Shown here: positions 26,150-29,276 of the stretch, one piece after another
How positions within the stretch are numbered: the stretch's first letter is position 1
How the letters are laid out: every line of letters begins with the position of its first letter
Origin: Calothrix anomala FACHB-343
GTDB taxonomy: Bacteria; Cyanobacteriota; Cyanobacteriia; Cyanobacteriales; Nostocaceae
DNA length: 64,000 nt
Assembly: GCF_014696435.1 (NCBI RefSeq)
Contig: NZ_JACJQG010000009.1
Coordinates: forward strand, 62,001-126,000
Direction of reading: 5' to 3'
Position numbers and translations under genes: made by a program
Notes under the pieces: model-generated
Told to the model about the DNA's origin: nothing
Database searches by the model: none
The model's input: only the letters and a program-made list of their open reading frames with translations

Positions 26150-27625
26150 ATGACTTCTGCTACAACTGTAAAAACCGAGTACGAAGCGATTATTGGTCTA
26201 GAAACCCATTGTCAGCTGAGTACAAATACCAAGATTTTTTCTACCAGTTCGACAGCATTCGGTGGTGACCCCAATACTAACATCGATCCAGTATGTATGG
26301 GTTTACCTGGAGTATTACCAGTTCTCAACCAAAAAGTACTCGAATATGCCGTAAAAGCAGGTTTGGCACTCAATTGTCAAATCGCTAAATATAGCAAATT
26401 TGACCGTAAACAGTATTTTTATCCTGACTTACCCAAAAATTACCAAATATCACAATATGACTTACCAATCGCCGAACATGGTTGGTTAGAAATTGAATTG
26501 GTAGATGCTGATGGCAATCCTGTTCGCAAACGCATTGGGATTACCCGATTGCACATGGAAGAAGATGCAGGTAAATTAGTACACGCAGGTAGCGAAAGGC
26601 TTTCCGGCTCTAGTTATTCTCTAGTAGATTACAATCGCGCAGGTGTACCATTAGTTGAAATCGTTTCCGAACCAGATCTGCGTTCTGGACAAGAAGCTGC
26701 TGCTTATGCCCAAGAATTGCGGCGCATTGTACGCTATCTTGGCGTTAGTGATGGCAACATGCAAGAAGGATCTTTACGTTGCGATGTCAACATCTCTATT
26801 CGTCCCGTAGGACAAAAAGAATTTGGCACAAAAGTAGAAATTAAAAACATGAACTCATTCAACGCCATCCAAAAGGCGATTGAATATGAGATTGAACGCC
26901 AAATCGCAGCCACAGAAGCAGGCGATCGCATTATTCAAGAAACTCGGCTGTGGGAAGAAGGTTCGCAACGTACAATTAGTATGCGGACAAAAGAAGGTTC
27001 TAGCGATTACCGCTATTTCCCCGAACCAGATTTAGCACCCATAGAAGTTTCCCCAGCACAATTAGAAAACTGGCGCAGCGAACTTCCCGAACTCCCCGCC
27101 CAAAAACGCCATCGTTACGAAAGTGAATTAGGGCTTTCTGCCTACGATACCGGAGTTTTGACAGAAGATAAGCCTGTTGCTAACTATTTTGAAGCCGCGA
27201 TCGCAGCTGGCGCAAGTCCCAAAGCTGCTGCTAACTGGATTACCCAAGATATTGCAGCCTACCTCAACAAGCAAAAACTCACCATCAGCGAAATCGGTTT
27301 AACTCCCCAAAATTTAGCTGATGTGATTTTGCGGATTGAACAAGGTAAAATCAGTAACGCCCAAGCCAAACAAAAGTTACCAGACTTGCTCAAAGGCGTA
27401 TCTCCTGAAAAAGCTTTCGCCGGACAAGAACTCATCAGCGATCCTGCTATTTTAGAACCAATCGTCGATGAAGTCATCGCCGCCAATCCCAAAGAACTAG
27501 AAAAATATCGCAACGGTAACACCAACCTCAAAGGCTTCTTTGTTGGACAAGTCCTGAAAAAAACCGAAAAACGCGCCGATCCCAAGCTCACAAATGAATT
27601 GGTAGAAAAGAAACTCAATTCTTAA
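26150..27625 (+). CDS. gatB: Asp-tRNA(Asn)/Glu-tRNA(Gln) amidotransferase subunit B
   Basis: 491 residues, full length. Conserved segments are EAIIGLETHCQLSTNTKIF, GLPGVLPVLNQ, KFDRKQYFYPDLPKNYQISQ, DYNRAGVPLVEIVSEPDLRS, EGSLRCDVNISIRP, GTKVEIKNMNSFNAI, and TRLWEEGSQRTISMRTKEGSSDYRYFPEPDL. The C-terminal YqeY-like tRNA-binding domain spans about 345-491. GatB phosphorylates misacylated tRNA and hosts the transamidation site. A terminator follows at once. Confidence 0.98.
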   Translation: MTSATTVKTEYEAIIGLETHCQLSTNTKIFSTSSTAFGGDPNTNIDPVCMGLPGVLPVLNQKVLEYAVKAGLALNCQIAKYSKFDRKQYFYPDLPKNYQISQYDLPIAEHGWLEIELVDADGNPVRKRIGITRLHMEEDAGKLVHAGSERLSGSSYSLVDYNRAGVPLVEIVSEPDLRSGQEAAAYAQELRRIVRYLGVSDGNMQEGSLRCDVNISIRPVGQKEFGTKVEIKNMNSFNAIQKAIEYEIERQIAATEAGDRIIQETRLWEEGSQRTISMRTKEGSSDYRYFPEPDLAPIEVSPAQLENWRSELPELPAQKRHRYESELGLSAYDTGVLTEDKPVANYFEAAIAAGASPKAAANWITQDIAAYLNKQKLTISEIGLTPQNLADVILRIEQGKISNAQAKQKLPDLLKGVSPEKAFAGQELISDPAILEPIVDEVIAANPKELEKYRNGNTNLKGFFVGQVLKKTEKRADPKLTNELVEKKLNS

Positions 27626-27728: not shown

Positions 27729-27748
27729 GATTAATGCAAAGATGGGTT

Positions 27749-27776
27749 ATACCCCTCAATCCCAAAGTGCTATACT
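27749..27776 (+). promoter_or_regulatory. promoter of array unit 1
   Basis: TATACT (27771-27776) is a good -10; the -35 is degenerate (ATACCC at 27749-27754), 16 bp away as in the other units. CCCCTCA and GTGC are shared with the other copies. Confidence 0.55.
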
Positions 27777-27782
27777 CTGTTA

Positions 27783-27833
27783 ATTGAATACACCATGATG
27801 GTCTGGAAAGCTGTTTAAATGGCTCCTCTTTTT
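27783..27833 (+). ncRNA. tandem small RNA, unit 1 (degenerate copy)
   Basis: About 50 nt between a -10 box (27771) and TTTTT. It aligns with units 2-4 (ACACCATGATGGTCTGGAAAGCTG against GCACCCTGATGATCTGGAGAGCTG) but the terminator stem is eroded to AGC/GCT with mismatches. Probably a diverging or dying copy. Ends are estimated from promoter spacing and T-run. Confidence 0.55.
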
Positions 27834-27885
27834 CTAGACTCCAGCAACTTAGACAAAAATATCTCAAAATTTTTAATAGGGGGTC

Positions 27886-27913
27886 TTGCCCCTCACTGCA
27901 AACGTGCTATAAT
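27886..27913 (+). promoter_or_regulatory. promoter of array unit 2
   Basis: TTGCCC (27886-27891), 16-bp spacer, TATAAT (27908-27913), a near-consensus housekeeping sigma promoter. Confidence 0.8.
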
Positions 27914-27919
27914 CTGATA

Positions 27920-27972
27920 TATAGATGCACCCTGATGATCTGGAGAGCTGCCCAAGTAGCTCTCTCTTTTTT
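27920..27972 (+). ncRNA. tandem small RNA, unit 2
   Basis: Start is placed about 7 nt after TATAAT. The body holds ATGCACCCTGATGATCTG, then a terminator stem GAGAGCT (27943-27949) / AGCTCTC (27958-27964) with loop GCCCAAGT and a T-rich tail to 27972. The unit is self-contained and about 52 nt long. The family is not recognised with certainty; the layout recalls the NsiR1 tandem sRNA array of heterocystous cyanobacteria, but no hetF gene is adjacent. Confidence 0.75.
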
Positions 27973-28028
27973 AAAGCTTCCATAAAACTTCATCATATCT
28001 TTGCACAAAAATAGCTGATCGATGGGTA

Positions 28029-28056
28029 TTGACCCTCATGCGTAAAATGCTATGAT
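28029..28056 (+). promoter_or_regulatory. promoter of array unit 3
   Basis: TTGACC (28029-28034), 16-bp spacer, TATGAT (28051-28056). Confidence 0.8.
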
Positions 28057-28062
28057 ATGCTA

Positions 28063-28114
28063 CGTAGATGCACCCTGATGACCTGGAGAGCTGCTTAAGT
28101 AGCTCTCTTTTTTT
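28063..28114 (+). ncRNA. tandem small RNA, unit 3
   Basis: Same body ATGCACCCTGATGACCTG, stem GAGAGCT (28086-28092) / AGCTCTC (28101-28107), loop GCTTAAGT, then seven T. The differences from unit 2 (GAT to GAC, CCC to CTT in the loop) leave the stem intact, consistent with selection on RNA structure. Confidence 0.75.
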
Positions 28115-28175
28115 ATTGGCGATACAACAGCAAAAAAAGATTAATCATTTTTTTATATTTTTTAACTAAGGGGTC

Positions 28176-28203
28176 TTGCCCCTCATAGCAAATGTGTTAT
28201 AAT
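28176..28203 (+). promoter_or_regulatory. promoter of array unit 4
   Basis: TTGCCC (28176-28181), 16-bp spacer, TATAAT (28198-28203), nearly identical to unit 2 including the flanking GGGGTC and ATCTGATATATAG. Confidence 0.8.
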
Positions 28204-28209
28204 CTGATA

Positions 28210-28260
28210 TATAGATGCACCCTGATGATCTGGAGAGCTGCCCAAGTGGCTCTCCTTTTT
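28210..28260 (+). ncRNA. tandem small RNA, unit 4
   Basis: Body identical to unit 2 through the first stem arm; second arm GGCTCTC (28248-28254) makes one G-T pair, followed by CTTTTT. It ends the array; the next gene is on the opposite strand. Confidence 0.75.
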
Positions 28261-28403
28261 CAATTTTTATCCACAACTGAATATTTTCTAGTCAAGACTT
28301 GAGTAGTTAATTTGTCAGCAGGCTTTGTTATGGATGAACTAAGGGCAGTTTTATTAATCAATGCACAGTAACTAAAATGCCCTAACAATTTTCAGCAGAA
28401 TCT

Positions 28404-29276
28404 CTAAACAGCTTTCATCGATTCAATACACTTTTTCATTTCTTGCTGCATAGTATCAACATCAGCATGAAATCTTCGACCATGACCAGGTAGTACCCAC
28501 TCAAATGAGTAATCAGCTAACTTACTCATGGATTTAATCTGTTCTGACCAAGAATACCAACAGAAATCGCGGAACGCAACTAATTGTTGTAAGTTATTTG
28601 ACCAAGCGAGATGATCGCCAGTAAAGAGAAACTTATTTTGATAAAGTAAAACAGTGTGCCCTTGGGAATGACCGGGAACTGGGATAATTAATACATCTGC
28701 AGTTAAAGCAAATGGTTCCCCACCAGTTAGTTGGATTTCCACATTGCGAGTACTTGCAGTAATATCATCAGTATGAAGAACGCGCTGACAATGAAAATGT
28801 TCAGCAAAATTTTGATGATCTGCAATATCATCTCTGTGGGTGAGATACATATAAGCAACTCCCCCCATCTCTTCTAAACGCTTGACTAAAGGCGCTGAAA
28901 AACTGGGAGAATCTACTAAAATATTCCCTGCTGGATGTTGAATAAAATAGCTAGCTGCAGCAAAAGATTTTTCTGAGTGATAGCCACAATGGTAAACATT
29001 TTCTGCTATTAATATTGGCAGAGTTTCTTGCGCAATTTTAATATCTTCAGGTTTTTCAACTGTACCAATAGAATTAGTAGGACAAGATAAAAGTGCTTGT
29101 AGTGCTGCTAATCTTTCAGTAGAATTTGTGGGTTGATGATAAACTGCTGACTGTTCGTCAATACTATGAAATACTTCCGGAGCCATCCAGCGACAGGTAT
29201 CACAATCTATACAAGTATTATCTACATAAAAATCGCCGTGAACATTTTCTGAGCGACGTAGTTTTAAATTCGCCAT
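28404..29276 (-). CDS. ferredoxin-domain MBL-fold hydrolase
   Basis: 290 residues. The N-terminal ~75 residues are a single-cluster ferredoxin module (C22, C25, C28 and C65 followed by Pro; CIDCDTC ... LLSCP). The rest is a metallo-beta-lactamase fold with THRDDIADH (a variant of HxHxDH), VPGHSQGHTVLLY, LFTGDHLAW, and VLPGHGRRFH near the end. The fusion suggests an iron-sulfur-dependent redox or hydrolytic enzyme; MBL relatives are thioesterase- or glyoxalase-like. Substrate unknown. Convergent with the small-RNA array. Confidence 0.88.
   Translation of the reverse strand: MANLKLRRSENVHGDFYVDNTCIDCDTCRWMAPEVFHSIDEQSAVYHQPTNSTERLAALQALLSCPTNSIGTVEKPEDIKIAQETLPILIAENVYHCGYHSEKSFAAASYFIQHPAGNILVDSPSFSAPLVKRLEEMGGVAYMYLTHRDDIADHQNFAEHFHCQRVLHTDDITASTRNVEIQLTGGEPFALTADVLIIPVPGHSQGHTVLLYQNKFLFTGDHLAWSNNLQQLVAFRDFCWYSWSEQIKSMSKLADYSFEWVLPGHGRRFHADVDTMQQEMKKCIESMKAV

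Follow-up and report, generated by a model that had tools for sequence, protein, structure and literature searches.

A tandem array of predicted small RNA genes downstream of gatB in Calothrix anomala shares its 5′ domain with NsiR1 and carries HetR-type palindromes

A four-unit array downstream of gatB

The window, a 64-kb stretch of the Calothrix anomala FACHB-343 genome, contains a tandem array of four 101-nt units on the forward strand, starting at 27733, 27870, 28013 and 28160 and hence spaced by 137, 143 and 147 nt. Identities to unit 2, used as the reference, are 66, 100, 73 and 90% for units 1 to 4. The array follows gatB (26150..27625, forward strand, assigned with NCBIfam/Pfam), which is its conserved upstream neighbour, and faces a convergent gene on the reverse strand (28404..29276). 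This confirms the four-unit array described by an earlier sequence-only reading, which gave the same number of direct units at intervals of 137–147 bp. That reading had placed the array between gatB and an MBL-fold gene; the former stands, but the latter encodes a Fer4_13 ferredoxin domain and an MBL-superfamily domain just under the Pfam cut-off. The ferredoxin domain is located at the N-terminus of this protein, and the convergent gene keeps its position only in the nearest fetched relative.

Putative promoters were located through their −10 boxes, all four of which lie where they had been proposed: TATACT in unit 1 (27771..27776), TATAAT in unit 2 (27908..27913, preceded by TGC), TATGAT in unit 3 (28051..28056, preceded by TGC), and TATAAT in unit 4 (28198..28203, preceded by TGT), each on the forward strand. 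The accompanying description of sigma70-like promoters with 16-bp spacers applies to units 2–4, with 10 of 12 matches in each call, but not to unit 1, which has no good −35 hexamer. Three such calls compare with 2.2 in shuffled sequence, which is not significant alone, and hence the case for the array rests on conservation.

Units 2–4 also end in terminator-like hairpins followed by a T-run (three found vs 0.6 expected), as previously noted, although the stem comprises 10 pairs instead of the 7 bp first assigned to it. Predicted RNAs, all on the forward strand, extend over 27919..27972 for unit 2 (start derived from the −10 box; seed AGATGCACCCTGAT from 27923; hairpin 27942–27965), 28062..28115 for unit 3 (seed from 28066; hairpin 28085–28108), and 28209..28260 for unit 4 (seed from 28213; hairpin 28232–28255). 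Folding z-scores for these three units are −2.30, −2.58, and −2.82, respectively. Unit 1, with a putative RNA at 27783..27832 whose two ends are predicted, displays a diverged seed (ATACACCATGATG) and an imperfect stem, and folds no better than its shuffles (z-score +0.22); here the body and stem have diverged while the promoter block is retained. We consider the original interpretation of these units as separate small RNA (sRNA) cassettes, each with its own promoter and terminator, to be right.

Conservation and linkage to gatB

We built a covariance model from the four units. In the genome of origin, this model yields good scores solely at these four places. Across the family Nostocaceae, it matches 213 of 218 genomes and all 56 genera, with 1–8 copies per genome, which places the array beyond chance, and in a sample of 388 genomes from the order it matches 265. 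Three of the five non-matching family genomes were searched again with laxer filters, still without a match. Of the 133 loci holding copies with this hairpin (some of these loci overlap), 80 have an upstream gatB gene in the same orientation, at a distance of 54–598 nt in 77 of them. This linkage is common to 11 GTDB families, and the suggestion that the array occupies a new site is therefore not upheld. Copies of this gatB type reach families that gave no HetR match. The terminator hairpin is retained with covariation, as judged from a model-fitted alignment: 97.2% of cells are paired, and 22 cells show a change on each side of the stem, a value reached by 0 of 500 shuffles. Only three pairs have such a two-sided change, however, which is not above shuffles (152 of 500 as high). 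Separately, one genome carries a six-copy array of gatB-type units away from gatB (L076/L232, G087:C58), and a gatB-linked copy is present on a contig of Scytonema hyalinum (L112).

The presence of several copies per genome within the family, up to eight, could also be expected of a functionless repeat, either mobile or dispersed. We regard this explanation as extremely improbable and rejected it as contradicted by conservation: seed copies in the genome of origin occur at two sites only, linkage to gatB extends over 11 families, and the box and hairpin are kept, the invariance of the seed across 378 contexts being itself a product of the search design.

A 5′ domain shared with NsiR1

No Rfam family was detected in the 64-kb window at gathering cut-offs. 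The best sub-threshold match within the array is to NsiR1 (RF02399), with unit 3 at 26.9 bits, unit 2 at 17.8, and unit 4 at 14.8 against a cut-off of 39, and unit 1 is not among the matches shown with E-values. The covariance search for NsiR1 that had been proposed for these units thus returns a match, albeit one below threshold (26.9 of 39 bits at best). The cmscan alignments of units 2–4 span all 60 positions of RF02399 and are identical at GUAGAUGCAC and CUGAU. Identity lies in the first 18 nt, and the hairpins are different; the 5′ domain GUAGAUGCACCCUGAU (U or C at the flank) is common to NsiR1 and units 2–4, and diverged in unit 1. For comparison, RF02399 itself exceeds its threshold in all 218 genomes of the family, and 2 of 14 control genomes give a signal below it.

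The second site of the seed in the genome of origin, on contig C86, is an 11-copy NsiR1 array beside the HetF gene, in which 10 of the 11 copies have TCCGGA at the −35 position. HetR is encoded on the same contig (C86:74824-75270, NCBIfam HetR). This genome therefore combines a single seed with two promoter types, each in an array of its own. By its sequence, the gatB array is a sibling of NsiR1. Similarities to NsiR1 as reported include the 5′ domain, a length of ~50–60 nt, a promoter and terminator for each unit, and a tandem multicopy arrangement (PMC9045159). The differences lie in the site (gatB and the MBL-like gene vs hetF), the promoter (a HetR-type palindrome vs DIF1 TCCGGA), the hairpin (GAGAGCU-type vs CCCC-type), and the score, which for the gatB array is below RF02399 gathering (39 bits). 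The absence of TCCGGA from the array, previously pointed out, is confirmed, the nearest occurrence in the window being at 29176. Between the two identities initially offered for the array, that of a different multicopy sRNA family fails on the 16-nt 5′ domain shared with NsiR1, whereas that of an NsiR1 relative at another site, distinct from the DIF1-driven array, is correct.

A leaderless micro-ORF starting with MHPD, instead of a base-pairing RNA, would offer another reason for the invariance of this block, which includes ATG CAC CCT GAT, and many NsiR1-type copies do read MHPDN-stop. However, the GTA preceding the ATG is equally conserved, an in-frame stop within 75 nt is missing from 119 of 378 contexts, and the frames of gatB-type copies run into the terminator. 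Coding potential was rejected on these three grounds, and we deem it very improbable.

No gatB-linked or HetR-palindrome sibling appears in the passages covered from a subset of the papers naming NsiR1, and a gatB-linked NsiR1 sibling with a HetR-type palindrome is thus provisionally new. Searching the literature for the motif text returned two virus papers only, both unrelated. A study on Limnospira, a filament without heterocysts, reports a 57-nt RNA162 resembling NsiR1 (PMC8400943). A second possible relative is the Nostoc PCC 7120 sRNA 4547237r, which is 51 nt long, confirmed by Northern blot, and restricted to heterocystous strains by BLAST (12 of 27) (PMC4734099). It may belong to the same family as the gatB-array sRNAs, which it resembles in size and heterocystous restriction when compared by description. 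A pattern scan of genome contigs matched 14 named loci, PCC 7120 not among them, and neither TCCGGA nor GGGN5CCC was found in 16 related loci at the promoter position that corresponds to the NsiR8 start of PCC 7120, 319 nt upstream.

Some other arrangements were observed within the wider family. Long and regular NsiR1 arrays with a DIF1 box of TCCGGG in place of TCCGGA occur in L131, L133, L134 and similar loci. Locus L102 (G222:C140, 1094-1330 and 1501-1580) holds two copies that combine a HetR-type box and the NsiR1 seed with a third hairpin, CGCCCAG; one of them passes the RF02399 cut-off (41.7 bits) and adjoins a HEARO RNA (RF02033).

A HetR-type palindrome at the −35 position

The conserved block before the −10 box, earlier taken as part of a sigma70-like promoter, matches the HetR recognition core GGGN5CCC and is not merely a −35 hexamer. 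The boxes, all on the forward strand, are GGGTTATACCCCTCA in unit 1 (27744..27758; 6/6 core positions, 11/14 to the hetP core), GGGTCTTGCCCCTCA in unit 2 (27881..27895; 6/6, 12/14 to the hetP core and 12/15 to the hetZ site) and again in unit 4 (28171..28185; 6/6, 12/14 to the hetP core), and GGGTATTGACCCTCA in unit 3 (28024..28038; 5/6, 10/14 to the hetP core). The GGGN5CCC core occurs 10 times in the window, including three times inside the array. Published sites are GAGGGGTCTAACCCCTC for hetP and GGGTCTAgCCCagCA for hetZ, with GGGnnnnnCCC as the structural requirement (PMC4192349). The boxes predicted here from sequence share with the hetP and hetZ promoters this core, with a CTC flank as in hetP, while differing in that they would drive sRNAs and are nearer to the start than the hetZ site.

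Across fetched loci, we counted distinct copies according to the HetR status of their genome. A box of at least 5/6, at a fixed position, accompanies 78 of the 79 copies with this hairpin in genomes with a HetR match (54 genomes), 60 of 60 in genomes not searched for HetR (26 genomes), and 2 of the 24 in genomes where a HetR search came back empty, compared to ~0.9% for shuffled upstream sequence. The 22 of these 24 copies that lack a box all come from two families, f8 and f18, in which the body, the −10 box, and often the gatB linkage are retained while the HetR-type box is missing. Copies with other hairpins in genomes with HetR have TCCGGA or a DIF1-like box in 84 of 99 cases, and a HetR core in 8 of 99. 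The model that brought in many of these loci had the box in its training. In loci retrieved solely with the bare short motif, a search that takes no account of the promoter, copies with this hairpin displayed the box in 33 of 33 cases outside f8 and f18, and in 0 of 3 inside.

HetR (PF03574) was found in 236 of 388 genomes of the order. Among 317 genomes outside the family, 163 have both the sRNA and HetR, 32 the sRNA only, 2 HetR only, and 120 neither; the 32 sRNA-only genomes include 16 from f8, 12 from f18, and one each from f9, f10, f15, and f29. At the level of the class (319 genomes, own included), 162 have motif TAGATGCACCCTGAT with HetR, 8 the motif only, 1 HetR only, and 148 neither, and the reversed motif has zero occurrences in every listed class genome. 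These genomes are related, hence p-values are not independent and small ones overstate the case. Copies with a box but no HetR match were seen in four genomes, G225 (99% complete), G354 (97%), G405 (82%), and G455 (89%), and the first two are exceptions against a strict HetR link. The GTDB families other than Nostocaceae are not known to form heterocysts. The presence of relatives sharing the 5′ end in nearly all examined HetR-bearing cyanobacteria points to a long-standing association of HetR with these RNAs. A copy is found ~3.5–5 kb from hetR in two genomes of one genus (G103, copy at C1:1709161-1709258 on the minus strand and hetR at 1712787; G101, copy at C10:137141 and hetR at 142124).

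That both box and HetR follow phylogeny, and that G225 and G354 have the box without a HetR match, would be consistent with a palindrome belonging to another regulator, or to a promoter or terminator part, that simply tracks filamentous lineages. We nonetheless find this quite unlikely, given that the exact GGGN5CCC carries the hetP flank CTCA at a fixed position, and that the box is absent from gatB-linked orthologues of f8 and f18.

Proposed regulation by HetR

We consider it likely that the array consists of four trans-acting sRNA genes, siblings of NsiR1, that are activated by HetR and pair with their targets through a shared 5′ seed. Each unit would be transcribed from its own promoter, where the HetR-recognition palindrome takes the −35 position, and the intrinsic terminator would release an RNA of ~50 nt. 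Its 5′ end (GUAGAUGCACCCUGAU), being invariant and unpaired or weakly paired in the fold, is the presumed pairing part, i.e., the seed in common with NsiR1 that would base-pair with target mRNAs. HetR most likely binds the palindromes and activates these promoters, since the box sits where the activating DIF1 box is located in NsiR1 genes. The same seed would then be produced by two routes, directly through HetR at the gatB array and through DIF1 and HetZ for NsiR1 beside hetF. This is in line with a report in which HetZ is required at DIF1 promoters and GGGN5CCC is a direct site of HetR action at hetP and hetZ (PMC7377430). Against HetR binding here, HetR sites needed context in a ChIP study, in which nine new sites failed to shift, and the GGGN5CCC site of hetR itself was dispensable.

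The sign of regulation could also be the opposite, with HetR blocking RNA polymerase at the −35 position of the same sRNA genes and the RNAs marking vegetative cells or stationary phase. This is the main rival to activation because the HetR region of Nodularia hetZ, 56–17 nt before the start, lies further upstream than the box, which here overlaps the −35 region. Repression would also fit 4547237r, possibly of the same family, which was seen in PCC 7120 under long nitrogen starvation and in dense cultures (PMC4734099). We judge repression unlikely, however, as DIF1 activates from the same position in the NsiR1 siblings and the −35 hexamers match poorly, a trait of promoters that depend on an activator.

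HetR is present in many filamentous cyanobacteria that do not form heterocysts. Building on activation by HetR, a more tentative possibility, to which we give somewhat less than even weight, is that an ancestral RNA regulon of HetR, independent of heterocysts, exists across filamentous cyanobacteria in general, where HetR directly switches gatB-side, seed-sharing sRNAs via GGGN5CCC, with NsiR1 as a DIF1-driven branch that multiplied beside hetF to serve heterocyst development. The sRNA promoters whose HetR core tracks the presence of HetR would provide a short-promoter test of the role of HetR outside heterocysts. NsiR1 would be recast as one member of a wider family in which selection keeps the 5′ domain and not the hairpin.

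Candidate targets of the seed

NsiR1 is reported to repress its targets through base-pairing with the translation start, as in alr3234, and also to pair with hetF (PMC9045159). We searched 49 genomes for perfect seed complements (TCAGGGTGCATC), and most matches fell within the sRNA genes, read from the opposite strand. Among the extra sites (20 regions fetched), one precedes the start of hup, the HU gene, by ~50 nt, within its 5′ UTR, and the others are in coding or unassigned DNA. The potential pairing with hup extends over 15 nt in 7 of 9 genomes of the same genus and in G074, with only an interrupted duplex in the genome of origin and G012. Duplex energies were computed for 29 of 30 fetched hup leaders, one being dropped because its start was not recognised: 15 reached the 1% point of 600 random segments or fell beneath it, and 16 did so for the 5% point. 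Without the eight leaders that prompted the idea, these numbers are 7 and 8 of 21, and 0 of 200 shuffled seeds gave duplexes as low on average. Yet none of the 15 leaders taken from other families passes (lowest energy −14.0 vs −17.8), and the hup element resembles a hairpin of its own (GATGC...GCATC), so we treat the hup 5′ UTR as a weak, family-limited candidate target.

None of these 15 leaders holds the element GATGCATCAGGGTGCATC, while other Nostocaceae hup leaders hold variants of it. It is located ~50 nt before the start in hup leaders L238, L240, L241, L256, L258–L263, and L271, and forms a small inverted repeat as well as a 15-nt complement of the sRNA seed.
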